Source: Natrinema salaciae
Lineage (GTDB): Archaea; Halobacteriota; Halobacteria; Halobacteriales; Natrialbaceae
Assembly (NCBI RefSeq): GCF_900110865.1
Contig: NZ_FOFD01000005.1
Coordinates: 62,001-126,000, forward strand
Direction of reading: 5' to 3'
Length of the DNA: 64,000 nt
The position numbers were made by a program, and so were the translations under genes. Positions 27,137-52,982 of this stretch are shown piece by piece; positions within the stretch are counted from its first letter, which is position 1, and each line of letters begins with the position of its first letter. The notes beneath the pieces are model-generated. The model made no database searches. It had not been told where the DNA came from and worked only from the letters and a program-made list of their open reading frames with translations.

Positions 27137-28255
27137 ATGACGCTCTTACCGGTTGACACTGACATCCTGGAAGATGTCTGTCGGGACATCGCCCAGGACA
27201 ACTACGGATTTCTCTACGTCTCCGATCAGAAAGGGGAGATCAAATCCGCCTACGAGGCCGCCGATATCGGCCTCGTCAACGCGCGGTCGCTGTCCTCGAG
27301 CGACATGCGCAAGGCGTTGTCCGAGATGGCGGCGGACGAGTTCGTCGACATCGAGCAGCTCCGGGACGGCGTCTTCTACGTCGACCCGTTCGGCGTCAAA
27401 GGGAACATGAACATAACCAGGGAGCTGACCAATCTGTTCGGCCAGCGGCTCGTGGTCACCGGGGAGACGCTGCGGTCGCGGTTCTCGCTCGCGATCGACG
27501 ACATGGAGTTTTTCGCCGACGAACTCGCCGACCGAAACTACGTCCGGCGGATCACTGCGGGAAAACGCGACTACTACACGATCGGCCCGCAGCTCAAGGA
27601 ACACGCCGACGACGTCGGCCTCGATTCGCGGCTCGCGCGGGAGTCCTCGAACGGGAAGATCGCCCACAGCGACCTCGAGAGCGTCATCGACGTCGACGCG
27701 ACCGCCGACGTGATCCGGTATCTCGATCGGGAGGGGTACATCGTCGACCTCGACGGCGAGTACCTCGTACAGGAAGCCATCGACGAGTACGCCCGCTATC
27801 TCGCCGAGCAGATCGAGGACGCGGTCGAGACCGAGTTCGAGGAGTCGAGCTACGTGCTTCGAACCGGCGAGTTCGAGCAGGTCGTCGAAAACGAGATCGA
27901 CAGCCGGTTCGACGTCCTCTCGAGGGCACGCAGCGTTCGCGGGGAGCTGCTCGACGGGACCCGCGACACGTTGATCGATCGACTCGGACTCGAAGCCGGG
28001 CGGGAGATGGTCGAGGCCGTCGAGCCGTTCGAGGCCGTCGTCGAGGATCACGCGCGGCGCGTTCTCACCGACCTGAAGGCCGAGCGGGACAAGCTTCCCG
28101 GTACGCTTCCGGAGTGGGTCGAGCTGGCCGAGGGCCACGTCGAAGAACTGCACGTGAGCGAGACGACCGACGTCAACGAGTACGTCCGCGACGCGGTTCA
28201 GGATCGATACAGAGCCCTCGTCAACCAAGAGGAGTTCGGCGGGATGGCAGCGTGA
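27137..28255 (+). CDS. predicted multi-winged-helix protein of unknown function
   Basis: The product has 372 residues, is acidic, and has no signal peptide or membrane segment. The text repeats winged-helix-like patterns: a short helical run, then a beta hairpin with a conserved Tyr/Val turn. Examples are EMAADEFVDIEQLRDGVFYV (about 68-87), ELADRNYVRRI..DYYTI (about 130-150) and YLDREGYIVDLDGEYLVQ (about 195-212). The C-terminal third is helical. This stringing of winged helices recalls scaffold proteins such as UFL1 or PCI/ESCRT-II subunits, but the match is only in pattern. It is the first gene of the plus-strand set and ends 80 bp before the ESCRT-III-like gene, so a part in the same complex is inferred. 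I do not recognise a named family. Confidence 0.8.
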   Translation: MTLLPVDTDILEDVCRDIAQDNYGFLYVSDQKGEIKSAYEAADIGLVNARSLSSSDMRKALSEMAADEFVDIEQLRDGVFYVDPFGVKGNMNITRELTNLFGQRLVVTGETLRSRFSLAIDDMEFFADELADRNYVRRITAGKRDYYTIGPQLKEHADDVGLDSRLARESSNGKIAHSDLESVIDVDATADVIRYLDREGYIVDLDGEYLVQEAIDEYARYLAEQIEDAVETEFEESSYVLRTGEFEQVVENEIDSRFDVLSRARSVRGELLDGTRDTLIDRLGLEAGREMVEAVEPFEAVVEDHARRVLTDLKAERDKLPGTLPEWVELAEGHVEELHVSETTDVNEYVRDAVQDRYRALVNQEEFGGMAA

Positions 28256-28335
28256 TCGACCCCCGGACGGTAACGCGAACGAGAGATGCAATCACCACGA
28301 CCACGACTTATCGATATTCTATCCACTAATCCACA

Positions 28336-29394
28336 ATGCCTCGAAAATACGACTTCGAACGGATCGAAAGCGACGGACAGGAGTACGTGATCGCCGACCC
28401 AGTCACCCAGACCGACGACCCGGTTCGCCTCGACGCCCGCTGGATCGAGGGCGACGACATCGAAGGCGAGTGGGAGCGGGCCATTCGTGCGATCATCAAG
28501 ACCGACCTGCTGGGATCGATGGAGCTCGAGGAGGGGAACGGCCGGATCGATCGGCGGCAGGCGATCGAGACGCTGGCCGCGGCCAGCGACGACGAGGGCG
28601 ACATCGTCACCAGCGAGCAGCAGGCCGAGGCGCTGCTCGAGTTCCTCGCCGACGAAGACATCCTGAACCTGCAAGGCGGGCAGGTCGAGATGCTCCGCAA
28701 TCCCAGCGACAACCCCGAGGAGATCAACGGGCGGATGATCCTCAACTGGGCGGCCGCGATCGACGCCTGCGTCGAGAAGATCTCCGAGACGATCGACCGG
28801 GTCGACGGCGCGAAGGAGAAACTCGAGACCAGGATGGCCGACGTCGAGCGCGACTCGGGGAAGATCGACGAATACCTGACGGAGACCGCCCAGGAGCTCA
28901 AGAGCCTCGGCGACGGCCCCGGCGTTCCACAGGACCCCACGGCGCTCCCGGCGGAGGACCGCGACCGGTTCCAGCAGCTCAAGCGGAAGCTGGTCTACCA
29001 CAAGAAGATGAAAGAGGCCGATCGGGAGAACCTCGCGGAGAAAGTCGAGAGCGGGACCGACCGGCTCGCGGACAACATCGAGATGCTCGAGTCGGCCAAG
29101 CTGACGCTCGCGAACAAGCGCGAGCAGGTCCGCACCCAGGCCCTAAAGAAGCAGACGTTCCCGGACGAGGCGATGAACATCGTCGACAACATGGGCGAGC
29201 TGACGACCCAGCTCGCCGGCGTCGGCGGCATCGAGGAGACGATCGAGGAGACGCCCGACCACGAGGTCGCCACGATGGTCGACGACGTCCTCGGCGACAT
29301 CGAGAGTATCGGCGAGACCGCCCAGCAGACGGCCGGTGAGACGGTCGACGAGACGGACCCCGAAACTGAAACCGGCGAACTCGAGATGTCGTAG
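28336..29394 (+). CDS. winged-helix plus coiled-coil protein, ESCRT-III-like in layout
   Basis: The 352-residue protein is cytosolic. Residues 40-125 look like a winged helix (LLEFLADEDILNLQGGQVEML). Residues 130-285 are almost wholly helical with heptad character: a long first helix (about 133-188), a Pro/Gly-containing loop (189-203), a basic second helix (QQLKRKLVYHKKMKEADREN, 208-227, onward to about 262), then shorter helices with MNIVDNMGELTTQL. The tail is acidic and flexible (ETVDETDPETETGELEMS). This order, hairpin core then short helices then acidic tail, is that of ESCRT-III/Snf7 proteins. A winged helix before it occurs in CHMP7-like members. The AAA ATPase two genes on supports the idea. 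PspA or an unrelated coiled coil remain possible. Confidence 0.75.
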   Translation: MPRKYDFERIESDGQEYVIADPVTQTDDPVRLDARWIEGDDIEGEWERAIRAIIKTDLLGSMELEEGNGRIDRRQAIETLAAASDDEGDIVTSEQQAEALLEFLADEDILNLQGGQVEMLRNPSDNPEEINGRMILNWAAAIDACVEKISETIDRVDGAKEKLETRMADVERDSGKIDEYLTETAQELKSLGDGPGVPQDPTALPAEDRDRFQQLKRKLVYHKKMKEADRENLAEKVESGTDRLADNIEMLESAKLTLANKREQVRTQALKKQTFPDEAMNIVDNMGELTTQLAGVGGIEETIEETPDHEVATMVDDVLGDIESIGETAQQTAGETVDETDPETETGELEMS

Positions 29395-29395
29395 G

Positions 29396-30109
29396 ATGCG
29401 CGCAGACTCACTGCTGCAGGGGGTTCGCCGGGTCGACGAACAGGGGGAGCGGCTCCTCTCCGTGCGGACGTTCTCGGGCCCGGACCCCGCGTGGTGGGTC
29501 GACGTCGCGATGGCCGCGCTCGTCGACCTCGCCGAGCTGCTGCGTGCCGGAGCCCCGTTCCCGCCTCGCCTCGAGGCGGAAGCCGGCGCGCGGTCGGTCG
29601 AACTCGAGTATCGGCCCGACGGCGGGACCCGCGAGGCGGGAGCCGAGATCGACCCGCAGGAACGGGACGACGTCGTCCGCCGGGTCCTCGAGGCCGGCTA
29701 CGAACGCGGGGAGACGACGATCGAGCGACTCGAACCGGACGTCGCCGACCGCGTCGCGGCCGACGACCGCTTCGAGACAGTCGGCTCTCGAGTCTTCGTC
29801 CCGCTGTCGGCGACCGCGCCGTACGCACGCAACTGGCGACCCCTCGTCCGGACCGTACTCGACCACCTCGAGGACGTCCTCGCGGACTTCAGACGGATCG
29901 TCAGCCGGGTGCGGGCTGCGGGTGCCGCTCGACCGCTCACGATCGGCTGCGAGTCGATCGTCGAGATGCTCGAGACCCTCTCGCTCGTCGTTCGGCGGGC
30001 CGATGCCGATAGCCGGTACGTCCGCGACCGCACCGATCACCGCCAGGGCGAACTGCTAGCGACGATCGAGGACGCGACGACACAGCTACGGAGTGACGAC
30101 AATGCTTAA
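29396..30109 (+). CDS. cytosolic protein of unknown function in the AAA/ESCRT-like operon
   Basis: This protein has 237 residues from the ATG at 29396, one base after the stop of the preceding gene. It is acidic and Arg-rich, with no membrane segment or known motif. The N-terminal half includes an aromatic helix (DPAWWVDVAMAALVDLAELL), the middle has a beta-rich stretch (RVFVPLSATAPYARNW), and the C-terminal half is helical (about 140-230). It overlaps the AAA gene by 8 bp, so it is translated with it. It could be an adaptor between the coiled-coil protein and the ATPase. I do not recognise the family. Confidence 0.75.
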   Translation: MRADSLLQGVRRVDEQGERLLSVRTFSGPDPAWWVDVAMAALVDLAELLRAGAPFPPRLEAEAGARSVELEYRPDGGTREAGAEIDPQERDDVVRRVLEAGYERGETTIERLEPDVADRVAADDRFETVGSRVFVPLSATAPYARNWRPLVRTVLDHLEDVLADFRRIVSRVRAAGAARPLTIGCESIVEMLETLSLVVRRADADSRYVRDRTDHRQGELLATIEDATTQLRSDDNA

Positions 30110-31841
30110 CCTGACCCCAATACTGAAACGAGATCAGCCGACGTCTCGAATCGAGATCGGAGCCAAGAAGGTCGGTCCCGAGACGGACACCGTCGAGATC
30201 CGACACAACGACAGGCGGGCGTTCTTCTACGTCGAACCGATCGACGACTCGATCGTCGACGGGATCGGGAACAAGGTCCGGATGCACCGGAACGTCAAGA
30301 CGGTGTTCGGGGGGATCGACCGCGGCAAGGACTTCCTCGTCGATCCCGACGCGTCGAAACGCGACGTCGTGGAGTGTTCGTCGGCGAAGATCCACACCAG
30401 CGAGGTCTCGCCCGAGGAGCTCGAGCCGTTCCTTCGAGAGAACGATTACCTGTTGCATCCGATGGAAGAGGTCGTTCCGAAAGGCGACGAGCGGGCGACG
30501 TTCGAGGTCGCCGCGATGGAGCCGACCGGGTACACGACGCTGCGGGTCACCCCGAACACGGAGCTCGAGTTCATCGGGGCCGGCGAACTGCGGGAGTTAC
30601 GGGCGACCCGGGACGCGGCGAGTCGCGGCGGCCCGGGTCCCGCCGGCCCCGCCGAAGCGGGTGCCGGCGACGAGGAGGGCGTTCAGGTCTCGCTCGAGCC
30701 CAAGAAGCCGACCGTCAGTTTCGAGGAGGACGTCGCCGGCCTCCCGGCGGTAAAGCGCACCGCGGAGAACTTGCTCGCCCTGTTCGATCCCGACGTTCGC
30801 GACGAGGTCGTCGACCGCTACGGCGACGAGTTCGCCGCCCGGGGCAACAGCATGCTGCTGTACGGACCGCCCGGCTGCGGGAAGACGCTCATCTCGGAGG
30901 CGATCGCCTACGAGGCGAAGTTCAACTCGAGCATCGAGGACGCCTACGGCGAGGTCAAGTTCCTCGAGATCAAGGGCAGCGACGTCCTCTCGAAGTACTC
31001 CGGCGAGTCAGAGAAACGCGTCGAGGCGATCTTCGAGAAGGCACACGGGATCGCACAGGAGGGGTTCGCAGTCCTGTTTTTCGACGAGGTCGACACCCTG
31101 ATCCCGGATCGGGGCGACGACTCCTTGCAGCGCCACGAGCGGTCGCTGACCAACGCCTTCCTGCAGGAGATGAACGAAATCGAAGACAACCTGCTCGTGA
31201 TCGGGGCGACGAACATGCCCTTCACGATCGATCCGGCGGCGACCCGTCGGTTCCCGATCCAGCAGTTCATTCCCCAGCCCGACGAGGACGTGATGGCCGA
31301 GGTCTGGCGCAAACACCTCTCGGCCATGGACACCGAGGACATCGACTACGAGCGGCTCGGGACGGCCTCGAAGGGGTACACCCCGGCGGAGATCGCCGAC
31401 CGCGTGCTCGGCAGCGAACTGCAGCGCGAACTCGTCGAGAGCGTTCACCTCCCCGATCGGGAGCCGATAGAGCCGGACACCGACTATTTTTTCGACCGGC
31501 TCGGCGAGACCGAACCGAAGACGATCCGGCAGTACGTCGCGAGCGTCCGGACGCAGATCGACGACCTCGAGGGGTACCCCGAACTCAAACGCTACGTCGA
31601 GGACCAGGCCGACCAGCTGGACATGCGCATCGGAACGAGGCCCTCGTCGCTCGGACAGCTGCTCGGCGCTGGAACGGCGTCGGCCGAATCGGCGACGACC
31701 GAACCGCCGACCGGAGCGGCGGAACCGGAGACGGAGGCGACCGAACCGAACGAAACGGGGTCGGACGCGGCCGAGATAGACATCTCGGACCCGGACATCG
31801 CGGACGACGCCGACTCGATCGGCGGTGATGACGATGAGTGA
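30102..31841 (+). CDS. Cdc48/Vps4-type AAA ATPase with a single AAA domain
   Basis: The product has 579 residues from ATG 30102 (a GTG at 30093 is also possible). The N-terminal 170 residues resemble a Cdc48 N-domain; the stretch ATFEVAAMEPTGYTTLRV, then VTPNTELEF (132-157), fits its second half. The AAA domain (about 207-470) has Walker A GPPGCGKT (255-262), pore loop SKYSGESEKRV, Walker B VLFFDEVD (324-331), sensor-1 Asn371 (IGATN) and arginine fingers Arg382-383 (TRRF). The pore loop and the single domain recall Vps4/katanin. The acidic tail (520-579) may recruit partners. Archaeal Cdc48 has two AAA domains, so this is not the housekeeping unfoldase. It probably remodels the coiled-coil or tubulin-like polymers encoded nearby. 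Confidence 0.9.
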   Translation: MLNLTPILKRDQPTSRIEIGAKKVGPETDTVEIRHNDRRAFFYVEPIDDSIVDGIGNKVRMHRNVKTVFGGIDRGKDFLVDPDASKRDVVECSSAKIHTSEVSPEELEPFLRENDYLLHPMEEVVPKGDERATFEVAAMEPTGYTTLRVTPNTELEFIGAGELRELRATRDAASRGGPGPAGPAEAGAGDEEGVQVSLEPKKPTVSFEEDVAGLPAVKRTAENLLALFDPDVRDEVVDRYGDEFAARGNSMLLYGPPGCGKTLISEAIAYEAKFNSSIEDAYGEVKFLEIKGSDVLSKYSGESEKRVEAIFEKAHGIAQEGFAVLFFDEVDTLIPDRGDDSLQRHERSLTNAFLQEMNEIEDNLLVIGATNMPFTIDPAATRRFPIQQFIPQPDEDVMAEVWRKHLSAMDTEDIDYERLGTASKGYTPAEIADRVLGSELQRELVESVHLPDREPIEPDTDYFFDRLGETEPKTIRQYVASVRTQIDDLEGYPELKRYVEDQADQLDMRIGTRPSSLGQLLGAGTASAESATTEPPTGAAEPETEATEPNETGSDAAEIDISDPDIADDADSIGGDDDE

Positions 31842-34836
31842 CGGCTACCGGCAGGTCGGCTCCTTCGAGAGCGGCCCCGTCGACGCCGTCGGCGTCGGCG
31901 ACGGCGCGATCGCCGTCGGGATCGGCGACCGCGTCGTCGTCGTGACGGGGAGCGACCGGGTCGAGATCGATCACGGCGACCGCGTCGTCGACCTCGCGCT
32001 CGCCGACCGCGTGCTCGTCCTCTCGTCGGACGCGCTGACGACCTACTCCCGAACCGGCGAGCGGATCCGCGAGCAGCCGGCCGCGGACGGCCACGCGGTC
32101 GCCGCCGTCGCCGACGAGGGACTCGCCGGCGTGCTCGGACCCGAACGCTTCCGCGCCGTCGATATCGCGACCGGCCGCGAGCGGTTCGACGTCGAGCGCG
32201 TCCGGCCCGGCGGACCGGCCGACGACGCCCTTCTGGGCACACCGAGCGGGTTCGTGCTCTCGACGTGGTCGTTCCTGACCCGGATCGATCTCGAGGGCGA
32301 GGTCGGCTTCGACCGCAACCTCGAGGCCGTCGTCCGGAGCCTGGGGCGGTGTGACGATGCGATCGTCGCGGCGCTCCAGAACGAGCGCCTCGTCGCCGCC
32401 GACCTCGAGAGCGGAACGTCGCGCTGGCGGACGGAACTCGCGGTCGAACACGTCGCGCCGCGAGGCGAGTCGTCGGTGCTGGTGACGACCGCCGACGGCA
32501 TCCGGGCGGTCGATCCGGCCGGCGCGACGGCGCCGGTCGACGGGCTCTCGAGCGGCGAAGGGTACGCGACGTCCGACGGCTCGCTCGTCTGTGCGGTCCG
32601 GGGCGAGACCGTCTCGACGTACGTCCACAGCCGCGAACAGCTCCGGGTCGCCGTCGCGACCGAGAGCGTCGGCGTCGGCGGCACGATCGACGTCGAGGTG
32701 ACCAACGCGACCGACCGGGACCGCCGGCTCTCGCTGTCCGCGTCGGTCGACGGGGCGACGCTCTCGCCGGCCGACCGGACCGCGACCGTCGGGGCCGGCG
32801 AGACGACGATCGTCGACTTCCCGGTCGAGTCGATCCGGGCCGAAGGGGAGGCGACGGTCGAACTCACCGCGGACGGATCGGTCCTCGAGCGGGCGGCGCT
32901 CGACCTCGACGACGCCGCGAGCGGCGGGATCGCCGTCGATACCGACATCGAAGTGGCGGCGATCGAGCACGGCGTCGCCGAACTCGCGGTCACCGTCGAA
33001 AACGTCGGCGGGGTGGAACTCGAAGGGCTTCGACTGCGCGAGACCGACGCGGGAACCGACGCCCTCGAGCCCGGGGAAGAGTGGACCGGAACGGTCACCC
33101 GGCCGTACGAACCCGATCGACGGGTCTCGGTCGGGCTCGAGGTCGCTCGCGGCGACCGACGCCGGGAGTACGCCCCGACGTGTACGCTGCCACCCGTCCC
33201 GACGATCGACGTCGAGCCGGACGGCGACGCGGTTCGCGCGACCGTCGAGACCGACGGCTCGGTGACCGTCGTCGATCGACTCGTGATCGAACTCCCGGGA
33301 GCGGGTCGCGTCCGGACGGCGGTGACGATCGAGCGAGACGAGTTCCTGCTGATCGTCCCACAGTTCGACGACGGGACCGCTCGCATCGGGTTCGAATCGC
33401 TCGACGTCGACGAGCGGGTCCGACTCGCCGGCGGTCCGGGCAGGCTCTCCCGCTCGCCGGGGATCGGCGAATCGGATCGTAGACGGACCGATCGAACAGA
33501 CCGGAGGCGATCCGATCGCACGGCCGCGTCGACGGACGAGACGACGACCGATCCGTCGGCGCAGAACCCACGCGAGGGTCGCGACGGCCGTGACGATCGC
33601 GACGACGGAACCGCACCGCCGGACCCTGCGGCCGCTGACGCGACCGCCGACGCCGCTACTGCGGCATCGTCTCGATCGGAACCCGAGACCGGCGACGACG
33701 GACCGGACGATCGGTCGCGAGCCGGGAGCGATCCTCCAGCGACGGCTCCGGCGAGCGACGAGGAGCGAATCGATGGCGGCTCCGGGGCCGAAGCCGACGA
33801 CGGGGAGGTCGGAGACCCGCGGCTGGTCGCGACGCGGCGGATCGACGAGGAATCGGTCCCGGCCGGCCACGCGGTCCGCGACCGGATCGAACTCGAGAAC
33901 CGGGGCGAGTCGGCGGGGGACGTCACCGTCGAGATCGGCGACTCGAGCGTCGACGTCGGTCGCCTCGCGGCCGGTGACCGGACGGCCGTCGAGCGATCGG
34001 TCGCGATCGGCTCCGGTTCGGGAACCGTCCTGTCGCGGGCGGCGGTCACCCTCGACGGAGCGGTCTGCGAGCAGTTCCCCGAACGGGAGCTGCCCGCAAG
34101 CGGCGACGGCGTCGCCGTGCGGGCGACCGTCGACGCGGCCGACGGGGCCGTCGTCGCCGACGTCGTGAACCGCAGCGATCGTCCACGGACCGTTCGCGAA
34201 CTCGAGATCCAGGGTCGGTCGGTCCCGATCGATACCCGGCTCGAGCCCGGCGAGACGACGACCGCGACCGGGGCGCTGAACGAGTTCGGAGCGGACGCGG
34301 ACGCGCTCGAGGGCGTGCTGGTGGTCGTCGACGGTGACGGCACGGAGCGGCGTCTCGATATCATCGTAGACGTCTCGTCGACCGCGGGAGCTGGCGGCGC
34401 GGACGGCGACGGTCCGTTCCGGATCGGGATCGGCTCGGAGACCCAGGTCGCCGGCGAGTACGGAACCGTCGTACTGGTCTTCGAAAACGAGGGCGACCGA
34501 TCGCTGTCGGACGTCTCGGTGTCGGCCAGCGGCGAGCCGATCAACGACCTGTTCTACTCGGAGGCGCGTCGCGAGCGCCTCGAGCCGGGCGACCGGATCG
34601 AGCACTTCGTCGATATGGAGCCGGGCGTGACGTCGCCGTCGTTCGACGCGACGGTTCGGTACGCGGCCGACGGCTCCGAGCGCGAGGTCGCTCTTCGTGC
34701 GGCCGGGCCGTCCGCCGAGGACGAAGCCGCCTGGACCGACGACCACCGCGAGCAGTGGTCGGTCGAGCGCGTCGAGGACGCGCGGACGGACGCGGACGGT
34801 GCGTCGTCGCTGTCGACGCCGGTCCGGCTCGAGTGA
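31834..34836 (+). CDS. large cytosolic protein: beta-propeller-like N-terminus and Ig-like repeats
   Basis: This roughly 1000-residue protein has no signal peptide or membrane helix. Residues 1-250 show repeats ending in short beta strands (GDRVVVVTG, ADRVLVLSS, GFVLSTWS, ESSVLVTTADG), as in PQQ/WD-like beta-propellers. From about 260 on come CARDB-like beta-sandwich modules with phrases such as VEVTNATDRDR, VTVENVGGVELEGL, LENRGESAGDVTVEIGD and VLVFENEGDRSLSDV. They are separated by a Ser/Thr/Asp/Arg-rich linker (about 545-650). Modules of this kind are normally extracellular; their presence without an export signal is odd. The start ATG at 31834 overlaps the AAA stop by 8 bp. It may be a scaffold of the machine. 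Confidence 0.8.
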   Translation: MSDGYRQVGSFESGPVDAVGVGDGAIAVGIGDRVVVVTGSDRVEIDHGDRVVDLALADRVLVLSSDALTTYSRTGERIREQPAADGHAVAAVADEGLAGVLGPERFRAVDIATGRERFDVERVRPGGPADDALLGTPSGFVLSTWSFLTRIDLEGEVGFDRNLEAVVRSLGRCDDAIVAALQNERLVAADLESGTSRWRTELAVEHVAPRGESSVLVTTADGIRAVDPAGATAPVDGLSSGEGYATSDGSLVCAVRGETVSTYVHSREQLRVAVATESVGVGGTIDVEVTNATDRDRRLSLSASVDGATLSPADRTATVGAGETTIVDFPVESIRAEGEATVELTADGSVLERAALDLDDAASGGIAVDTDIEVAAIEHGVAELAVTVENVGGVELEGLRLRETDAGTDALEPGEEWTGTVTRPYEPDRRVSVGLEVARGDRRREYAPTCTLPPVPTIDVEPDGDAVRATVETDGSVTVVDRLVIELPGAGRVRTAVTIERDEFLLIVPQFDDGTARIGFESLDVDERVRLAGGPGRLSRSPGIGESDRRRTDRTDRRRSDRTAASTDETTTDPSAQNPREGRDGRDDRDDGTAPPDPAAADATADAATAASSRSEPETGDDGPDDRSRAGSDPPATAPASDEERIDGGSGAEADDGEVGDPRLVATRRIDEESVPAGHAVRDRIELENRGESAGDVTVEIGDSSVDVGRLAAGDRTAVERSVAIGSGSGTVLSRAAVTLDGAVCEQFPERELPASGDGVAVRATVDAADGAVVADVVNRSDRPRTVRELEIQGRSVPIDTRLEPGETTTATGALNEFGADADALEGVLVVVDGDGTERRLDIIVDVSSTAGAGGADGDGPFRIGIGSETQVAGEYGTVVLVFENEGDRSLSDVSVSASGEPINDLFYSEARRERLEPGDRIEHFVDMEPGVTSPSFDATVRYAADGSEREVALRAAGPSAEDEAAWTDDHREQWSVERVEDARTDADGASSLSTPVRLE

Positions 34837-37287: not shown

Positions 37288-38272
37288 CGCTATCCCCCAC
37301 CGATACGACCGAGCCAACCCTCGCTGCATCGTACGTGCGCCGCCAGACGAACAGTCGTCCGGCGACGATCGTTCCCAGCAGGCCGACGACGACGCCGTAC
37401 CCGATCAAGACGACGACGGAGGCGATCGCGAGCGTCGTTCGCGTCTGCCCGACGTCGTCGCTCATCGCTGCCAGTGCGTCTTCGCGATCGGCGAGCCCGT
37501 GGTGTGCCGCGCGCTCCCGCGCGTCACGAATCCGAATGTGAGTCGCCTCCGCGTCCTGATACGCCGCGAACGTCTCGAACCCGTTCGCGCTGACGGCCGC
37601 CTGCACGTCCGCGCAGTCGGCACAGTCCTCGAGGAAGGTAGCCGAGGTGTTCTGCGCGGTCGCGATCGTCTCGCGATCCCGCTCGAACTCGGCGGACAAC
37701 TGCTCCGCCTGGACCCGGAACTGCGTCGCTTCCTCGGGCATGTCGGCTCGCTCGTAGGCCGTCGCGGTCATATCGAGGTACTCGATTCGCTCGGGCGTGC
37801 CGTTCGTCGCATCGGCTTCCTCGTAGAGGCCGTCGCCGAGTCGCTCGTAGAACCGCGTCAGCGCGAGAGTCACGAGCGTCGCCTGCGTCTGATCGTACTC
37901 CTCGAGGTCGTCGGCGTAGGCGCTCACGTTTTCGGCGGCCGCGAGACTCGACTCGTAGTCGCCGTCCTCGGCCAGGACGTAGGCGCGATCGAACGCGGTG
38001 AGGGCCCCGATGACGGCCTCGAACTCGGCTCGTTCGGCCGCGGTGAGTTCGCCCGTCACCTGCGTCTGGGAGACGGCGAACGTCCGGACCGTCTCCAGTT
38101 CGTCGTACTCGTCGTAGGCCTCGGTCCCTTCCATCGAACGGAACGTTTCGAAGTAGTCGTTCGCCGTCTCCTCCTGCGCGGCGGCGGTCCCCCCGAACAG
38201 CGGTATCGTCGTGATCGTCGCGACGACGAGTATCGCGGTCAGTAGCGTCGCCCGACGGCTGTGTGTGTGCAT
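37280..38272 (-). CDS. secreted helical protein with C-terminal TM
   Basis: The product has 330 residues. A signal peptide (to about residue 32, GGTAAAQEE) is followed by an all-helical, acidic region (35-270) that reads like tetratricopeptide-type helical repeats (AFDRAYVLAEDGDYESSLAAAE). A Cys pair DCADC sits near 220. One membrane helix (SVVVLIGYGVVVGLLGTIVAGRLFV) and a 20-residue cytoplasmic tail follow. The start ATG at 38272 lies 4 bp after the preceding stop, and its 3' end overlaps the next gene by 8 bp. It is similar in layout, though not visibly in sequence, to the helical part of the protein from 35023-37287; the two may form a complex. No known family seen. Confidence 0.8.
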   Translation of the reverse strand: MHTHSRRATLLTAILVVATITTIPLFGGTAAAQEETANDYFETFRSMEGTEAYDEYDELETVRTFAVSQTQVTGELTAAERAEFEAVIGALTAFDRAYVLAEDGDYESSLAAAENVSAYADDLEEYDQTQATLVTLALTRFYERLGDGLYEEADATNGTPERIEYLDMTATAYERADMPEEATQFRVQAEQLSAEFERDRETIATAQNTSATFLEDCADCADVQAAVSANGFETFAAYQDAEATHIRIRDARERAAHHGLADREDALAAMSDDVGQTRTTLAIASVVVLIGYGVVVGLLGTIVAGRLFVWRRTYDAARVGSVVSVGDSDV

Positions 38273-38276
38273 GTCG

Positions 38277-41198: not shown

Positions 41199-41200
41199 AC

Positions 41201-44518: not shown

Positions 44519-45522
44519 CGAATCACCTCCAAGAGCTCGGGCCCGACGACGACCGCGAGGAGGGCGGCACCGCCGATCGCCAGGGCGATCCCGACGAGGA
44601 TCGGGACGAGCGCCGTCTTCCGATCGTAGGAGACGTTTCGGCTCAGCTTCATCGCCTCCTCGACGCGCCGGGCCGCGACGAGCGGGACTGCGACGCCCGC
44701 GACTCCGCCGGCGACCAGCCCCCCGGCGATCGATCCGAGCGCGGCCAGCCGCACGCTCGAGGCCGCCCCGGCGCGCTCGGCCTCGGCGACGTCGGTGTAC
44801 CGGTCGATCGCGTCCTCGGTCTCGGCGCGCTGTGCGGTCGCGTCCGTCCCGACCGCCGTCAACGCGCGGTACGCTCCACTCGCGTTCCCGCTCTCGGTTC
44901 GGCGCAGGAGATAGTCGCTGAGCGCCGCTTCTCGATCGGTCATGTTCTCGTACGTTTCGGTGAGCATCTCGAGATCCGATTCGGCGGCGTCGAGTTCCGC
45001 GTCACCGTTCTCGATCGCCGTCGTCGTCTCGGTGAGTTCGTCCGTCGCGTTCGATAGCGCCGACCGTGCCGTCCGATACTCGGCGACTCGCGCGTCGTCG
45101 ATTCGCTCGAGAGCGGCGGTATCGCCGCCGGCCGTCGCGACCGTGACGGACAGGCCGTCGGTCTGGTCCTCGTTGAGCGTGACAGATTTGGCGAACGCGA
45201 TCGAGGCCGTGCCGTTCCCGGTGAGGGTGACGGTGTACGTCCCGTCGTCGTCCGCGGTTGCGGAGTCGCGTTCGAACCCGTCGCCGGCGGCCAACCAGTC
45301 GCCCGTATACGTCGTCCCGTCGGTGCAGTAGGCGAGCTCGAACGTCGACCCCTCGTACAGCGTCTCGTCGCCGTCGGTCCACTCGCCGTCGACCGATCCG
45401 ACGACGGTCGAGCCGGTGCTGTCGCAGTCGACGTCGGCCGCAGCGGTAGCGGTTCCCGGTCCGACGGCGAGTATCGCCACCAGAGCGACCGCACACAGCA
45501 GGATTCGTCGGCCCGTGCTCAT
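44515..45522 (-). CDS. secreted beta/helical protein with two C-terminal TM helices
   Basis: The 335-residue product starts at MSTGRRILLC; its ATG overlaps the previous stop (ATGA). A signal peptide runs to about 28 (TATAAADV). An Ig-like domain with a Cys pair (33-130; DVDCDSTG, AYCTDGT) and a helical hairpin (140-245; TDELTETTTAIENGDAELDAAE) follow, then two membrane helices (about 255-280 and 305-328) with the basic loop KLSRNVSYDRK between them. It fits the same signal/beta/helical/TM plan as the proteins at 35023-38272. Function unknown; likely an outer-face subunit of the system. Confidence 0.8.
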   Translation of the reverse strand: MSTGRRILLCAVALVAILAVGPGTATAAADVDCDSTGSTVVGSVDGEWTDGDETLYEGSTFELAYCTDGTTYTGDWLAAGDGFERDSATADDDGTYTVTLTGNGTASIAFAKSVTLNEDQTDGLSVTVATAGGDTAALERIDDARVAEYRTARSALSNATDELTETTTAIENGDAELDAAESDLEMLTETYENMTDREAALSDYLLRRTESGNASGAYRALTAVGTDATAQRAETEDAIDRYTDVAEAERAGAASSVRLAALGSIAGGLVAGGVAGVAVPLVAARRVEEAMKLSRNVSYDRKTALVPILVGIALAIGGAALLAVVVGPELLEVIR

Positions 45523-45779
45523 TGGAGCCGTCCCCCGATCTCCCGGCTCTTGTACCAGTAGGTCGCACCGCTCGCGAGCGCGACGCCGAGACCCGCGCCG
45601 AGCAACAGCCCGCCGGCCGCGATCACGAGCGTCTGCTCCGCGAGCGACTGCGCCGTGATCGCTCGAGACGTCGTTTCGATGGCCGTCTCCGTCGCCGAGC
45701 CACTGACGGTTCCCGTCGCTGCGAGGCCGCCGAGCGCCACGGCGAGTGCGAGGACGCCCGATGGGAGTCGTCGCGTCAT
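45519..45779 (-). CDS. small membrane protein between tubulin-like gene 2 and the beta/helical gene
   Basis: The product is 86 residues, with a signal-like first segment (LPSGVLALAVALGGLAATG) and one clear membrane helix (LVIAAGGLLLGAGLGVALASGATYW, quoted in part: AAGGLLLGAGLGVALASG). A short basic tail (YKSREIGGRLQ) faces the cytoplasm. Both ends overlap neighbours by 4 bp, so translation is coupled and the protein is almost surely real despite its size. The YWYKSRE end resembles the tail after the last TM of other proteins in this locus. Confidence 0.75.
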   Translation of the reverse strand: MTRRLPSGVLALAVALGGLAATGTVSGSATETAIETTSRAITAQSLAEQTLVIAAGGLLLGAGLGVALASGATYWYKSREIGGRLQ

Positions 45780-47161
45780 GCAAGTAGCTCCTCCGTCTCC
45801 GCTTCGTACGCGTCGGCTGCCGCCTCGATATCCGCGAGCCGGTCGATGTCCTCGCGGCGGTACGTCAGCAGCGTCGTCACCGAGGCGAGGTTCCTGTCGC
45901 TCATCGCGACGCCGATGTTGACCTCGTTCAGGTTGGACGTCCGCTCCAGATACTCCTTGACCGTCCCGATTTCGACGCTGTGGGACCCGGAGCCGAGGTT
46001 CGATTTCGGCGCCCTGATCAACGAGATCGCCTTCTGAGCGCCGCCGACGTCGACCTTCGCGAGGGTCTGTTTCGCCGCCGACAGCCGCGAGAGTGCGGCG
46101 CTGTCGATGTCGCGTTTCCCGACGAACGGCAACAGATAGCCCGGCAGCGACCGCGTCATCGTCACCGAGCGTCCGATCGCGGCGTACCCGGGCGTCGACT
46201 CCTCGCCGGCGACGCCGAACGATAGCGACGTCACGATGTCCCGGACGTCGATATCGGGCGTATCGATGCCGTCGACCGCGCTCGGATCGACCCCGCTCAA
46301 AACCGGGCCGGCGACGAGGTCGTAGATCGACGCCGCGACGTAGTCGTTGTACTCGCCGAACTCGCCGCCCGCCGAGTCGAGATACGAGATGCGCTGATTG
46401 TCGACCAGAATGATACCGTCGACCTCGTCCTCGAGCCGGTCGAGGCCGTACCGCGCGTTCCAGGCCTGTCGGCCGGCGCTGGCCTCCCCGTCCTCGTCCG
46501 ACCCGCCGACCTCGTCTGCGCCGCGGGTGTTCGGCAATACGGCGACTGCGACGACCTTGGCTCGCCCGTCGGTGAACGCCCTGATCTCGCGGGCGAGATG
46601 CGGACCGATCCCGCAGCCGGTTCCGCCACCGAGGCCGAGAAACAGGAACGCGAACTGGACGCCCGATCCCGTCGGTTCGACCGCGGGCCCCGGCTCGAAT
46701 TCGGCGTCGGGATCGATCGGTGCGTCGTCGGCTTCCTCACCGTCGATCGGCTCTTCCACGTCGGTCGGATCGTCTTCGAACGACTCGTCGGCCCCCGCGG
46801 ACCGGTCGAACCCCGATTCGAATTTCTCGCCGAGGATAGTCTGGATCTGCGGCGCGTGTTCGGCCATCACCTCGTCAGCGTCGACCGGGTTGCGACCGAA
46901 CCCGCCCGTGACCATCTCCTCGAATCCCGGTTCGGTCCCCTGAACGAGACCGTGCTGTTCGGCGATTCCGTACTGATCTTCGGGCGGAACGTTCGAAAGG
47001 TTCTGCAGGTCCCGCATCGTCGAATTGAACACGAGCGGCCGACCGAGCGTCGAAATATCGGCCGAATCGAACAATCCCAGCAGCGAATCGTCGGTGTAAT
47101 CGAACACCGAATCGACGATCGCGCCCCCCGCCTGTCCAGCCCCAACGAACAAGTACGTCAT
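45776..47161 (-). CDS. tubulin/FtsZ-superfamily GTPase-like protein 2
   Basis: The protein has 461 residues. It opens with FVGAGQAGGAIVDSVF (5-20), the first nucleotide loop, and has the tubulin signature LGLGGGTGCG (175-184). Between them is an acidic insert (about 115-165, DVEEPIDGEEADDAPIDPDAE in part). A stretch YNDYVAASIYDLV (about 270-283) sits where the T7 region is expected. The C-terminal domain (about 300-440) reads as the usual alpha/beta fold (NEVNIGVAMSDRNLASV). It resembles the tubulin-like proteins described as the FtsZl/Tubulin_2 group more than cell-division FtsZ. It is the first gene after a 364-bp AT-rich gap and so may start its own transcript. Confidence 0.85.
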   Translation of the reverse strand: MTYLFVGAGQAGGAIVDSVFDYTDDSLLGLFDSADISTLGRPLVFNSTMRDLQNLSNVPPEDQYGIAEQHGLVQGTEPGFEEMVTGGFGRNPVDADEVMAEHAPQIQTILGEKFESGFDRSAGADESFEDDPTDVEEPIDGEEADDAPIDPDAEFEPGPAVEPTGSGVQFAFLFLGLGGGTGCGIGPHLAREIRAFTDGRAKVVAVAVLPNTRGADEVGGSDEDGEASAGRQAWNARYGLDRLEDEVDGIILVDNQRISYLDSAGGEFGEYNDYVAASIYDLVAGPVLSGVDPSAVDGIDTPDIDVRDIVTSLSFGVAGEESTPGYAAIGRSVTMTRSLPGYLLPFVGKRDIDSAALSRLSAAKQTLAKVDVGGAQKAISLIRAPKSNLGSGSHSVEIGTVKEYLERTSNLNEVNIGVAMSDRNLASVTTLLTYRREDIDRLADIEAAADAYEAETEELLA

Positions 47162-47525: not shown

Positions 47526-49526
47526 TTACCCGCGGAGTCGCCTGAGCATGACGCTGTACTCGTTTCGTTCGTAGAGCGCTTCGACGTGGTCTAGCACCTC
47601 GTCGGCCGCCGAACAGAGGCCGGCAGCGCGCATCGGGCTGTCGGTCTCGGCACGTTGGGCCTCCGTTCGGAGGTCCTCGACCAGCGAGAGGAAGTGGCGC
47701 GGAATGGTGTGGTTGTGGTCGGCGCGGACATCGATGTACTCGCGCTCGATCGTCTCGACTCGGTCCCCGATATCGGCGATCAACCGCCCGGTATCCGCCC
47801 CGCTGCCGCCGTCGTCGAGCGATCGCGAGAGTCGCGGTAACAGCGTCCGATCGTAGAACGTGCTCTCCTGATAGATCGCGTACAACTGCACGTCGGTGAC
47901 GTCGTCCCGCTCGATCATCGCCTCGAGTTCGCGGACCCGATCGGCCAGATGCCGGTAGACGTCGCCGTCCTTCCGCTGAAGTTCGTCGTCGATCGCGTCG
48001 AGCCGTCGCCGGACGTCGCGCGTGCCGATATCCGCGATCGTCGCTCGCAGCTCCGCGTAGGCGTCGAGCGAATCGACCGTCGAGCGCAGCACCGGCTCGA
48101 CGTCGGCCGCATCCGGCTCGCCCAACGCCTCGAGCAACTCCCGCGACTGGGGCGACTGCGGTCGAACGGAGCGGTCGAGGTCGGCCGCGATCGACGGAAC
48201 CGCCGTCTCCGGCTCCCGATCGGCCGCCGGCCGCTCGAGCACGATCGTTTCGCTCTCGAGGGCGTCGGCCAGTTCCGTCGTCCGCTCGGCGACGTCGGTC
48301 GAACGGAACGTGAGCGCGTCGCTCCGGTCGGCCTCACGACAGACCGTTTCGGCTGCGGCCCGGATCCGATCCCGCTCCCGCTCGGACTGCTCCAACTCGG
48401 CTTTCGTCTCCGAGAGCGCGGCCTCGACCGTCGCCGCGTCGTCGGTTTCGTCGAGGACGCGGTCGAACACCGGCTCGAGCCCCCCCGGGATAGCACCATC
48501 TCGAGCGGCCAGCGTCCGTTTCGCCGATCGGATCTGTTCGTCCGCCGTCGGATCGTCGAGCCGCTCGACGGTCTCGGCGACCGCACCCGCTTGCTCGAGG
48601 CGGTCGACCGCGTCCTCGAGCGCCTCCTCGAGCCGGTCTTCGTTCGGGTCGGGACTCGAGAGGACGCGACACAATTCGTCGGCGATGGGGTCCGTCGGCC
48701 GCGCTCGCGAAGTGACGTCGTCTGCGACCGACGTAATCGGGTGTGTTGTCACGTCGTCGGCCGATTCGTCTCGCGGCGTCCGAACGGATTCGGTCTCGTC
48801 CGCCGGCGAGCGGTCGGCGGGTGCGGACGGTTCCGCATCTCGTTCCGGCGGCGGCGCTTCGCGGGTCGCCGCCGACTGCGAGGACGGCCGGTTCGGTTCG
48901 CGGTCGGCGTTTCGTCCCCGGCCGGGGGTTTTGATCTCGCGAACTCGCTGTCTCACTTCGGCCACTACGTCGTCGACGGTGTCCGTCGCGATCGAACTGA
49001 TTTCGGTCGACTCGCCGTCGGACGTCTGAATCTCGAGTTCGGTAAACGCTCCACTCTGGTGAGAGCGGACGCCGGTCACCTGATCGTAGTAGATTTCCTC
49101 GTTGGTACCACCGCCGGCCCCCGCCCGGGCTTCCATGTCGTACTTCGCCCCCTTGTTCAGGTTGACCGACGTATCGGTCACGACGATCGTCGTGTTGAAG
49201 TACGTATCCGCCGCCCTGACCAGCGGCGGCGAATTTCCGGAGTTGTACGTCAAATTGTATAGATCGGCGCTGTCGACTTCGATACCGCGCCTCGCGTTGC
49301 GCTCGGACTCGCCGATGAACGTCTGTACGAACGATTGATACTTGTTGTTGATCTCTCGCACACCCCAGTACCAGATCGCGATTCCCCCGAGCAGACCCAG
49401 GCCGACGAACGGGCCGATCGCGTCTATCATCGCGCCGATGATGGTAAACGCGACGGTCACACCGATCGTCACTAGCCACGGCGACCACCCTATCTTCCAC
49501 CGAAGATTGTTGACGTCCGCTGCCAT
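47526..49526 (-). CDS. two-TM protein with a PH-like domain and long coiled coil
   Basis: The 666-residue protein starts with two membrane helices (about 17-37 and 38-56; LVTIGVTVAFTIIGAMI, FVGLGLLGGIAIWYWGV). Residues 75-195 look like a bacterial-type PH/GRAM domain: strands NTTIVVTDTSVNLNKG, EEIYYDQVTGVRSHQ and TELEIQTSDGESTEI, then a closing helix DDVVAEVRQRVRE. A Ser/Pro/Asp-rich linker (200-270) precedes a long acidic helical region (275-666). It would be a membrane-anchored cytoplasmic rod. PH-like folds often bind lipids or proteins, which suits a membrane-remodelling role. The gene lies between tubulin-like genes 2 and 3. Confidence 0.8.
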   Translation of the reverse strand: MAADVNNLRWKIGWSPWLVTIGVTVAFTIIGAMIDAIGPFVGLGLLGGIAIWYWGVREINNKYQSFVQTFIGESERNARRGIEVDSADLYNLTYNSGNSPPLVRAADTYFNTTIVVTDTSVNLNKGAKYDMEARAGAGGGTNEEIYYDQVTGVRSHQSGAFTELEIQTSDGESTEISSIATDTVDDVVAEVRQRVREIKTPGRGRNADREPNRPSSQSAATREAPPPERDAEPSAPADRSPADETESVRTPRDESADDVTTHPITSVADDVTSRARPTDPIADELCRVLSSPDPNEDRLEEALEDAVDRLEQAGAVAETVERLDDPTADEQIRSAKRTLAARDGAIPGGLEPVFDRVLDETDDAATVEAALSETKAELEQSERERDRIRAAAETVCREADRSDALTFRSTDVAERTTELADALESETIVLERPAADREPETAVPSIAADLDRSVRPQSPQSRELLEALGEPDAADVEPVLRSTVDSLDAYAELRATIADIGTRDVRRRLDAIDDELQRKDGDVYRHLADRVRELEAMIERDDVTDVQLYAIYQESTFYDRTLLPRLSRSLDDGGSGADTGRLIADIGDRVETIEREYIDVRADHNHTIPRHFLSLVEDLRTEAQRAETDSPMRAAGLCSAADEVLDHVEALYERNEYSVMLRRLRG

Positions 49527-49664: not shown

Positions 49665-51263
49665 TCAGGCCATGTTCTCGCGCCCGAGCGACGAGAACAG
49701 CGCTTCGACCGCGTCCCACTCGTCGCGGACGTTCTCGGCCTGCTCGCTGCTGCCTTCCTGTTTGAGCCGCTGGGCCTGCTCGTACATCTCCGACAACGAC
49801 GGCATCTCCGGGTTCCACAGCGTTCCCCAGAGGTAGACGTCGTCCAGGTCGGGTGTGACTAGCTGTTTGACGTGAACGTCGATCGTTTCGATTCCCGAGA
49901 CGTTCCCCGCATCGAGAAATTCCTCGCTGGAGATGATCTCGGTTATCGTCCCGTCGGCGACGAACTCCGAGACGTCGTCCATCTTTTCCTCGGGGCCGTA
50001 CAACAGTACCGTCCCGCCCCAGGCGGTCGTCGGGTCGAACTCGGCCAGTTTGTTCTGGAACAGGGCGTTTCGGACGAGTATCTCGAGTTTCGACCGATCG
50101 AACGAGTCCGCACGCGAGCGGCCTAGAACCGGCGCGAGGATCACCGCGGGAGTAAACGACGCGTCCGGATTCAGCCGGTACTTGTCCTCGACCGGCCGGA
50201 AACTGTCGGCCGGATCGAACACGTCGCCCATGATCGACATCGTCGCGTCGCGATCGAGGAACTGCGGCACCGACGACATCGTGAACGCCTCGAGAAACGC
50301 CACGAGCGGGCGATTGATTTCGGTGTACTGCGGCGGATTGTAGTCTTCCAGACCGTCGATCTGCGGCCGGATGTCCGCCCCCACACTCTCGAGGCGATTG
50401 TTATCGAACGGGATGATGGCGTCGACCGCTCGCGAGGTACGGGCGAGTCCGACGACGCCGTTTACTTTCGCGCGACCGCCGTACTCGGAGTACTCCGTTC
50501 CCTCCGAGGGGATGACGACGCTGCTGAAGAGCGGTTTCGGAACGATCGTATCGTCCGCGAGAACGTCGCTTCTGAGGCGATCGGCGACGACCGGCGTCGC
50601 GCCACAGCCGGTCCCTTTCGTGACGCTGTGGATGAACATCACCGCCTGGGAGTCCTGGATCCGCTCGGTCTTCATGTCCCAGCGCTCCTGGAACGGGTTT
50701 GCGTCGCCCTCGAAGTCGGCCTCCATCAACCGCTTCCCGATGTCCCACCGGTAGCCGGCCCCCGCGTAGTCGTGGCGACCGAACCCGATGATACAGTTCG
50801 GCAACAGGTCGTTCCGGCTGTAGCCTTTCTCCTCCTGTGCGTAGTAGGTCTGCTCGAGTTCGCTGACGTTCGTGTTCAGCGGGCCGTAGCCGGCGAGCCC
50901 GCCCTCCCAGATCCGAGCGCGTCGCTCGTTGTTCTCCGCGAGCGTCTCGCGACGAAGCAAGATCGCATCGAGCAGGTTGTTTCCCGCCCCGCCGACACCG
51001 ATGAGGAACCACTTCTTGCCGTAGGAATCACCGAGCAACTCGTCGCTCGGCGTGTCGGTCGGCGACTCAGTCGGCGATCGAGGACCGTCGTCGGGCCGCC
51101 CCTCGTCGGGCGGCTCCGCGGCGAATACGTCCTCGCGCAGCTCCGGATACACCTGTTCGACGGACTCCGGCTCGTCCCCGTGTGCGGATCGGATGTGTTC
51201 GACGAGGGTTCCCCGATCCCACTCCCCCTCCCGCGCCATACAGATCTTACAGAGGTTCGTCAT
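49665..51263 (-). CDS. tubulin/FtsZ-superfamily GTPase-like protein 3 with N-terminal zinc finger
   Basis: The product has 532 residues. It begins with a C2H2-type zinc finger (Cys5, Cys8, His23, His28) and an acidic Pro/Asp-rich linker (about 45-78). The GTPase part starts with FLIGVGGAGNNLLDAI (86-101). The tubulin signature is altered to TKGTGCGATP (215-224; GTGCG in place of GGTGTG). YTEINRPLVAFLEAF (313-327) fits the T7 region. The C-terminal domain runs to about 480, then a helical end (MYEQAQRLKQEGSSEQAENV). A zinc finger on a tubulin-like protein is unusual and may bind a partner or nucleic acid. It differs from both other tubulin-like proteins here. Confidence 0.85.
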   Translation of the reverse strand: MTNLCKICMAREGEWDRGTLVEHIRSAHGDEPESVEQVYPELREDVFAAEPPDEGRPDDGPRSPTESPTDTPSDELLGDSYGKKWFLIGVGGAGNNLLDAILLRRETLAENNERRARIWEGGLAGYGPLNTNVSELEQTYYAQEEKGYSRNDLLPNCIIGFGRHDYAGAGYRWDIGKRLMEADFEGDANPFQERWDMKTERIQDSQAVMFIHSVTKGTGCGATPVVADRLRSDVLADDTIVPKPLFSSVVIPSEGTEYSEYGGRAKVNGVVGLARTSRAVDAIIPFDNNRLESVGADIRPQIDGLEDYNPPQYTEINRPLVAFLEAFTMSSVPQFLDRDATMSIMGDVFDPADSFRPVEDKYRLNPDASFTPAVILAPVLGRSRADSFDRSKLEILVRNALFQNKLAEFDPTTAWGGTVLLYGPEEKMDDVSEFVADGTITEIISSEEFLDAGNVSGIETIDVHVKQLVTPDLDDVYLWGTLWNPEMPSLSEMYEQAQRLKQEGSSEQAENVRDEWDAVEALFSSLGRENMA

Positions 51264-51467
51264 TCTCGGTACTATCCTACCCGTACGCCGGAACTATCTA
51301 AAAGATTACGTGTGCGGCGACGGCGAATCTATTCCCAGCAGCCATCGGCGACACATTTTACTGTGAAAACACATCATTCAACGATAACGTGAGAGATTCC
51401 ACCGCATTTGGACCGGTTTTCGACCGCGACCGATGCCGTAATCGTGGGCCGTCGCTCGGCCGACGAC

Positions 51468-52982
51468 TCACCTACCGTGGCGCTCGACGAACCGCTCTCG
51501 TAACGTTTCGAGTCCCGACTGCGGTGACGTTCGCGGACTGAACTCGATCTCGAGAAAGCCCGGCGGAGCCCCCTCCTGCAGATCGACGGCTGCGACGACG
51601 TCGGTCTGTCGGCGGCAGTACGCGGCCACTTCGTCGAGGACGGCCGGACGAGCGACGCTATCGGGTAGCCGATCGGTCTGGCACTGAACCGTCTCGACGC
51701 CCGTCCCGCCGTCGAGTTCCCGGAGGACGAACAGGATCTCGTCGGCGATCGCCTCCGTCGTGACGCCGGCGTGGCCCCCCGTCGCTGCGCCGGAACCGGT
51801 GGCCACGGCGCGGTTCGACGACTCCTCGCTCGTGAGTGTCGCCTCGTCCGTGCGGTCCGGGGCCGCTCCGCCGTCGGAACCCTCCCGGTCGGTGATCTCG
51901 ATCGCGCTCTCCTCAAGTGTCACGTCGACGCCGTACTGGCGCTCGACGATCGGGGCGAGATCGCGCATCAACGCCGTCGGCACGGCTTCGGGGAGGGCGA
52001 CCGTCCCGCCCCCGTGCTCGATCGTCCCGACCAGTCCGCCGAGGAAGTCGACGGTGACGAGCAGGTCGTCGGCGGCGTCGTCCGCGTCTCGAAGCTTCCG
52101 CCGGGCGTCCTCGAACGAACAGCGGTGCAACAGATCGGTCGCGTCCGACAGGTCGCGTTCGATATCGGCGACGCCCGGGACCGAGTCGTGGCGACCCGCC
52201 AGCACGAAGTCGTCGACGCGATCGGCCAGCGGCCCCTCGAGTCGGTCGGTCAGGTCACGCACGTCCGCGAGCGTCCCGTCGACTTCGGCACGCAGTTCGA
52301 CGAGGTCCCCCTCTCGGCGGCGCACGTGCTCGTGGATCGCCTCGCGATGCTCGTCGACCGCCGCGGCGACCATCGCCAGCTCTCGAATCGTCCCGTCCTC
52401 GAGTCGATCGCGGACGGCCTGTTCGGCCGCATTGACGTGAACGGTCTCACCCGACGACGGCAGAGACAACTCGCGGTACCGAGCCGGGAGGTTCACGATC
52501 TCGTACGGCTCGCCGGTCGGCGCGGCGAGTCCGGGCTCCAAGCGGCCGTCGGCGAGCGCGTCCTCGAGTCCGCGCCGGAGGATCCGCTCGGCTCGCTCGA
52601 TTCGCTCCCGGGCGGATTCGTGATCGTCTCGGGTTTCGGATTCGAGGTCGCGTACGCGCTCGACCGCGTCGGGAACGATCGGCTCGAGGCGCTCGAGCGT
52701 CGTCTCGTCGAACCGCTCTTCGAACCCGTTCGCCGCGGAATCCGTCCGGATTTCGTCCCTGCTCGAGTCGGTGCTCGTGGGGTCGTCGCCGTCGTCGGCC
52801 GCGGTCGCGAACCGGCGCTGGACGACGATCGCGACGCCGATGACTGCCAGTACTCCCGCGGCCAGCGCGAACGGGAGCGTCGTATCGGCCAGTGAGACCA
52901 CCGCTTCGGACTGAACGGCCCACGTAGCCCGACCGTCACCCCCGCTGAGAGCCGGGTTCCGTGCGTACACTACGGACGACAT
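51468..52982 (-). CDS. single-TM coiled-coil protein with C-terminal alpha/beta domain
   Basis: The 504-residue protein starts at MSSVVYARNPAL; the frame extends 18 codons further up. One membrane helix (about 33-53, LPFALAAGVLAVIGVAIVV) is followed by a basic stop-transfer (QRRFA) and a cytoplasmic acidic coiled-coil region (75-330; VERVRDLESETRDDHESARE in part). The end (about 410-500) is alpha/beta (EILFVLRELDGGTGV, GFLEIEFSPRTS). It is similar in plan to the proteins at 42428-44518 and 47526-49526. It is the most upstream gene of the minus-strand set, about 205 bp before tubulin-like gene 3, and may carry its own promoter. Its role in the system is inferred from location and layout. Confidence 0.75.
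   Translation of the reverse strand: MSSVVYARNPALSGGDGRATWAVQSEAVVSLADTTLPFALAAGVLAVIGVAIVVQRRFATAADDGDDPTSTDSSRDEIRTDSAANGFEERFDETTLERLEPIVPDAVERVRDLESETRDDHESARERIERAERILRRGLEDALADGRLEPGLAAPTGEPYEIVNLPARYRELSLPSSGETVHVNAAEQAVRDRLEDGTIRELAMVAAAVDEHREAIHEHVRRREGDLVELRAEVDGTLADVRDLTDRLEGPLADRVDDFVLAGRHDSVPGVADIERDLSDATDLLHRCSFEDARRKLRDADDAADDLLVTVDFLGGLVGTIEHGGGTVALPEAVPTALMRDLAPIVERQYGVDVTLEESAIEITDREGSDGGAAPDRTDEATLTSEESSNRAVATGSGAATGGHAGVTTEAIADEILFVLRELDGGTGVETVQCQTDRLPDSVARPAVLDEVAAYCRRQTDVVAAVDLQEGAPPGFLEIEFSPRTSPQSGLETLRERFVERHGR

Follow-up and report, generated by a model that had tools for sequence, protein, structure and literature searches.

A haloarchaeal gene cluster with three tubulin-like proteins and an AAA ATPase, very probably a Halo_adaptin ESCRT locus

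We describe a 16-gene locus at positions 27137-52982 of a 64,000-nucleotide stretch of DNA from Natrinema salaciae (the whole stretch is referred to below as the window; C5:62001-126000 of a 4.86-Mb haloarchaeal genome). On sequence grounds the locus very probably belongs to the 'Halo_adaptin' ESCRT (endosomal sorting complexes required for transport) system of Halobacteriales, which was defined bioinformatically by Makarova et al. (2024; PMC10936438), and we think it reasonably probable that this Halo_adaptin-type system is an accessory machine for membrane remodelling or protein sorting, operating alongside the normal FtsZ and CetZ. A first-pass annotation of the window had held that no described system has this set of parts; that claim has to be withdrawn, because the Halo_adaptin kit is the same, a CetZ-like protein included. 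The system was thus already known, although published as a prediction only, and what is new here is the presence of three tubulins with intact GTPase motifs, a zinc finger on one of them (TubC), a chimeric Halorubrum cluster, hybrid loci with the tubulin-like protein FtsZl1, and a complete copy on the Halobacterium salinarum plasmid pHS2.

Organisation of the locus

The open reading frame listing and the translations agree with the two tightly packed convergent gene sets that had been proposed. A plus-strand operon of five genes (P1-P5, 27137-34836) faces a minus-strand operon of eleven (M10 down to M1, including a gene for a membrane protein of 87 amino acids (aa), 52982-35023) across a gap of 186 bp. 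Genes overlap at the junctions P3/P4, P4/P5, M1/M2, M2/M3, M3/TubA, M5/M6, small/M6 and TubB/small, and the non-overlapping junctions of both operons are spaced by 3 to ~360 bases. Hydropathy places transmembrane (TM) segments in seven minus-strand proteins, and the 87-aa protein is also hydrophobic, giving the eight membrane proteins that the annotation had counted. RefSeq gives the name 'cell division protein FtsZ' to TubB and TubC and calls most of the other cluster genes hypothetical. The genes, with the basis for each reading, are as follows (wH, winged helix).

27137-28255, plus: P1, tandem wH protein, 372 aa (AlphaFold and Foldseek; fits the 'proximal wH gene' of the publication, arCOG11740/11741)
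28336-29394, plus: P2, N-terminal wH and long helical hairpin/coiled coil, 352 aa (AlphaFold; fits the published wH and coiled-coil protein)
29399-30109, plus: P3, fast-evolving, 236 aa, immediately upstream of P4 (where the publication has its 'derived ESCRT-III (PspA-like)' gene, PMC10936438)
30093-31841, plus: P4, AAA ATPase with an N-terminal domain and one AAA domain (PF00004; fits the ATPase of the publication, which is Vps4-like, has a VAT-type N-domain and lacks MIT)
31825-34836, plus: P5, beta-propeller and Ig-like giant, 1003 aa, no TM (weak NEW3/Ig-like Pfam; fits the published 'adaptin-like' protein)
35023-37329, minus: M1, signal/TM, Ig-like region, helical region, C-terminal TM (hydropathy, hhalign with M2, weak ASH/Ig Pfam)
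37280-38278, minus: M2, signal/TM and C-terminal TM, with a helical region that shares homology with M1 in its C-terminal part (hhalign)
38277-41204, minus: M3, beta-rich, multi-TM, carboxypeptidase-regulatory-like domain, helical tail (PF13620 weak, below cut-off; hydropathy)
41201-42424, minus: M4 = TubA, tubulin-superfamily GTPase, 407 aa (PF00091 above cut-off)
42428-44518, minus: M5, two N-terminal TM, cytoplasmic helical and Ig-like parts (hydropathy; conserved neighbour of TubA)
44515-45516, minus: M6, TM protein, 333 aa (hydropathy)
45516-45779, minus: 87-aa hydrophobic protein, flanked by TubB and M6 (translation; homologs in H. salinarum and Natrinema)
45776-47161, minus: M7 = TubB, tubulin-superfamily GTPase, 461 aa (PF00091 above cut-off)
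47526-49526, minus: M8, TM, PH-like, helical tail (RefSeq calls the Natrinema ortholog PH domain-containing)
49665-51263, minus: M9 = TubC, tubulin-superfamily GTPase with N-terminal C2H2 zinc finger, 532 aa (PF00091 above cut-off)
51468-52982, minus: M10, N-terminal TM and cytoplasmic helical region (hydropathy)

M2 and the C-terminal helical/TM region of M1 are homologs (hhalign probability 88), which suggests a duplication.

The locus matches the Halo_adaptin system

The published kit comprises a Vps4-like ATPase that has a VAT-type N-domain and no MIT domain, a small 'ESCRT-III-like' gene upstream of it, a proximal duplicated-wH gene, a wH and coiled-coil gene, a membrane protein, a CetZ-like protein, and two 'adaptin-like' proteins, each with several Ig domains and a WD40/PQQ propeller at the N-terminus, along with further Ig proteins; its authors placed the clade in a Vps4 tree, predicted a role in vesicle formation or sorting and gave Haloquadratum walsbyi as an example (PMC10936438). 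The window fits this description feature by feature: P1, P2 and the membrane and tubulin genes have their counterparts, and P4, P5 and, by its position, P3 are candidate counterparts. A duplicated-wH gene followed by a wH and coiled-coil gene is seen in P1 and P2 (AlphaFold, gene order), and a CetZ-like tubulin is present not once but three times (PF00091). The differences are that the published text has one CetZ-like protein whereas the window and the genome G014 have three, that the window has eight membrane proteins, and that of the two propeller/Ig proteins only one, P5, is recognised in the window, with no second.

Genome G014 fits H. walsbyi C23 and carries the whole array in the same order, the three tubulins included, in a locus of 47% G+C flanked by mutL-like and mutS-like genes (named from reading the sequence), with the P4 ortholog at C3:563245-564963. 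The C23 Halo_adaptin ATPase is WP_014555335.1, and its tie to G014 is through architecture and genome match, not accession. From the shared array and the fit to C23 we conclude that, as judged by sequence, the window locus is the ortholog of the H. walsbyi locus.

Proteins of the plus operon

AlphaFold modelled P1 (predicted local distance difference test, pLDDT, 88) as a chain of winged helices and P2 (pLDDT 79) as a winged helix followed by a long helical hairpin, in agreement with the multi-wH protein and the wH plus coiled-coil protein of the first-pass annotation. Foldseek matched the P1 model to UFL1 (E 1.5e-6), SelB (1e-4) and ESCRT-II (8e-3) (prob 1.0). P4 has a single AAA domain (PF00004, E 5e-32), as had also been read from the sequence. 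Its scores against CDC48 (126 bits) and CdvC (114 bits) are each far under the respective cut-off, and when scored per domain it reached 96-98 bits with Cdc48 D1 and D2 and 118 bits with Vps4B. Pfam gave no match to an MIT domain in P4; its N-domain weakly resembles the end of the Cdc48 N-domain (hhalign probability 69), and a PDB profile search for a p97-type N-domain found nothing. The CdvC model NF041006 was also tried as a marker for other Vps4 loci and was dropped, since Cdc48 matches swamp the signal. In P5 the Ig-like/NEW3 Pfam matches are weak, and RefSeq describes the H. salinarum ortholog as a PQQ-like beta-propeller.

The two operons form one system

Strong TubC matches and strong P1 matches picked out an identical set of 25 genomes among 242 haloarchaea, with none discordant (Fisher p 1.4e-34, a figure that ignores relatedness), and no genome among them had P1 but lacked TubC or TubA. 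In 295 genomes of the same phylum there was no strong P1 match outside the haloarchaea. Since their markers occur in the same 25 genomes (25/25), we conclude that the plus and minus operons are one system, as had been proposed; independent occurrence of the two sets, on which that proposal had been staked, was not seen in the 242 genomes, the limit being tubulin modules that stand alone beside FtsZl1 (see below).

The whole array was found by tblastn in the same order, within 40-kb stretches, across several haloarchaeal families and down to 30-50% identity, and gene order is kept in most of the 25 cluster genomes. Because order is conserved at such distances and TubC also occurs on plasmids, the array is more than chance. 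In three Halopenitus genomes (G098, G061 and G017) both operons are present but apart, and in G162 they are split by a contig break. For the proteins of the plus and minus operons the distance matrices correlate with r of 0.75-0.97, in part from shared ancestry, and trees of the concatenated operons have 11 of 17 splits in common, as compared with a mean of 0.29 and a maximum of 2 in shuffles.

These data bear on the idea that the locus serves protein quality control, with P4 a Cdc48-like unfoldase, the wH proteins its adaptors and the tubulins incidental neighbours. The 126 bits of P4 to CDC48 and the UFL1 match of P1 would fit; however, P4 has only one AAA ring, P1 does not occur apart from TubC and TubA, and the operon contains no ubiquitin-like or protease gene, so that we regard this as improbable.

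The three tubulin-like proteins

TubA, TubB and TubC all exceed the Pfam PF00091 gathering cut-off, and their profiles match structures of FtsZ, CetZ and tubulin, which upholds the earlier assignment of three proteins to the tubulin superfamily. TubA has the T4 glycine loop GGGTGNG and DxxD, and TubB the T4 loop GGGTGCG and DxxD, in 23/23 clusters; in TubC, GTG[CT]G is kept and D350/D353 are invariant (full clusters checked, n=23), the T7-loop acids being assigned from sequence, not structure, with a loose pattern for TubC. The N-terminal C2H2 zinc finger of TubC is likewise found in all 23. With these motifs intact, hydrolysis of GTP by TubA, TubB and TubC is plausible. Membership of the FtsZl1 family (PF13809, Tubulin_2) was also considered and rejected, as only TubB matches it, with 11 bits against a cut-off of 27.

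The closest structural relatives of TubA are CetZ proteins (4b46, 4b45), and this, together with the many envelope-spanning partner proteins, is what would be expected of a CetZ-like cytoskeleton for cell shape or surface positioning, in which the AAA ATPase serves turnover and there are neither vesicles nor an ESCRT mechanism. However, two wH proteins, an AAA protein of the VAT-N type and a beta-propeller/Ig protein are foreign to known CetZ loci (PMC9856176), and the window tubulins score only 20-29 bits with the NCBIfam FtsZ model, the cut-off of which is 295. We therefore consider such a cytoskeleton unlikely.

Two further tubulin-like loci were noted. One, in Halopenitus G098 with its detached plus operon, is an additional tubulin-like gene (393 aa) that directly adjoins P1 (L158:6411-7592). 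Genome G182 has a tandem pair of divergent tubulin-like genes (390 and 438 aa; L091:15706-18229), possibly another uncharacterised tubulin locus.

FtsZl1 hybrids and other described systems

In genomes G048 and G042, TubB-M6-M5-TubA-M3-M2-M1 faces P5 with FtsZl1 nearby and without P1-P4 and TubC, and in G081 FtsZl1 and P5 face M8-TubC-M10 without TubA/B. These FtsZl1 (PF13809) hybrid loci lie at L156:4992-8462 and L155 (G048), at L153/L154/L224 (G042) and at L084:2896-6327 (G081). General co-occurrence of FtsZl1 with the cluster was rejected, as FtsZl1 is present in only three of the 25 cluster genomes (a count of long-frame matches) and the cluster is missing from all 31 further haloarchaeal stretches with FtsZl1, two of which give only weak P5/M3-like matches. 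The link between FtsZl1 and the tubulin modules is real but rare, since most haloarchaeal FtsZl1 loci are without cluster parts. There is thus an asymmetry: the AAA module P1-P4 is tied to the tubulins, whereas tubulin modules are able to stand without P1-P4.

The FtsZl1 system (Makarova and Koonin, 2010; PMC2875224) resembles the window locus in having a divergent tubulin-superfamily protein in a membrane-protein operon, and the two meet in the three hybrid genomes with TubA/B or TubC and P5 homologs. It differs in its FtsZl1 protein, a coiled-coil protein of ~1100 aa that the window lacks, in that TubA/B/C fall under the PF13809 cut-off, and in that the window locus has no vWA or kinase genes. 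It is possible that the hybrids are a missing link between the two described systems. As a more speculative extension, TubA/TubB with M1-M6 and TubC with M8/M10 might be interchangeable membrane-shaping units that couple either to an AAA/wH ESCRT-like engine or to FtsZl1, the systems of 2010 and 2024 being variants of one modular platform and the three co-assembling tubulins a multi-component filament.

The Halo.Tub group (Santana-Molina et al., 2023; PMC9871819), compared by description, is likewise haloarchaeal and tubulin-like, with quasi-tandem copies and coiled-coil neighbours, but only 5 kb per side were examined there and no AAA or ESCRT link was made. The artubulin-Snf7 locus of Nitrosoarchaeum (Yutin and Koonin, 2012; PMC3349469) also sets an archaeal tubulin relative beside an ESCRT-III gene, but it has two genes, tubulin proper and true Snf7, and belongs to another phylum.

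A chimeric Halorubrum cluster and a proposed mechanism

The Halorubrum-type cluster of G038 (L050) contains a foreign block in which identity is 44% and 35% in the two halves of P2, 30% in P3 and 48% in the N-domain of P4, next to native neighbours at 73% (P1), 91% (AAA domain of P4) and 76-84% (tubulins). P2 identity is equally low in the named Halorubrum loci L097 and L098. It appears that P2, P3 and the P4 N-domain were exchanged as one block, which fits an N-domain that recognises P2/P3.

Eukaryotic cells depend centrally on tubulins and on the ESCRT machinery. A prokaryotic cluster that joins three tubulin relatives, a Vps4/Cdc48-like motor and ESCRT-II-like wH proteins would serve as a small model for the coupling of cytoskeleton and membrane, and it is plausible that GTP-driven polymers and an AAA motor act on the membrane. 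In the scheme that we infer, GTP would drive TubA, TubB and TubC to assemble into filaments on the membrane, and the adjacent TM proteins would anchor them (TubC by M8/M10, TubB by M6 and the small protein, TubA by M3/M5). The extracellular Ig parts of M1-M3 and the cytosolic beta-propeller of P5 would select cargo or surface, P1 and P2 would provide an ESCRT-II-like wH scaffold for a helical assembly of P2/P3, and P4 would recognise that assembly through its N-domain and pull it apart with ATP. The output would likely be membrane budding or vesicles. The strict co-occurrence, the P2/P3/N-domain chimera and the FtsZl1 hybrids yield concrete interaction hypotheses.

Several points weigh against an ESCRT-type machine. 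The annotation's ESCRT-III-like reading of the P2 coiled coil did not hold up: PDB profiles, Pfam on 20 homologs and AlphaFold with Foldseek were all negative, the P2 model giving nothing at E<=0.001 against PDB and no ESCRT-III chain among the 50 best. For P3 the PspA/ESCRT-III identity is unconfirmed, profile searches being negative or uninformative; its profile matched designed antiparallel coiled coils only, and neither PspA nor ESCRT-III. The top Foldseek match of P1 is UFL1, not ESCRT-II, the placement of Halo_adaptin in the Vps4 tree is that of the publication, and TubA/TubB loci without P1-P4 exist (G042, G048). Since the block swapped in G038 is contiguous, a single recombination tract without meaning could explain it. 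Finally, membrane action, filaments and vesicles are predicted only.

The cluster is mobile

Of 16 genomes sampled from the genus of the window, only three have the cluster; the clusters nearest to that of the window are in Natrinema. In a quick tree, single clades were rejected for three host families (approximately unbiased test, p 2.5e-40, 3e-5 and 6e-5). TubC occurs on five plasmid records, and plasmid copies of the cluster are seen in H. salinarum R1 (the complete copy on pHS2, OE_RS12000-OE_RS12075), Natrinema and Halobaculum, with main-chromosome copies in G014, G037 and G161. We conclude that the cluster is accessory, horizontally transferred and mobile. The pHS2 copy makes the system testable in a laboratory organism.

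Plasmid copies that carry tubulins and winged-helix proteins could suggest that the locus segregates plasmids or chromosomes in the manner of TubZ/TubR. That seems to us highly improbable, given the main-chromosome copies, the eight membrane proteins, the want of a small TubR-like DNA-binding gene and a gene order that is independent of replicon type. A patchy, mobile distribution and a large multi-gene NTPase locus would also suit anti-virus defence by NTPases and membrane effectors, but PADLOC gave generic AAA scores and no specific match, TubC was unmatched in phage and viral collections and no effector domain was recognised, which leaves defence very unlikely.

The left flank of the cluster is syntenic with close relatives (84-88% identity) up to 26461-26469, just past an alcohol-dehydrogenase-like gene (25397-26458), and this position is the left edge of the island. 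No relative was found with both flanks joined as an empty insertion site. To the right, a stretch of ~190 bp at 56105-56300 recurs elsewhere in the same genome and in relatives, with lower GC content to its right, and looks like a mobile-element remnant.

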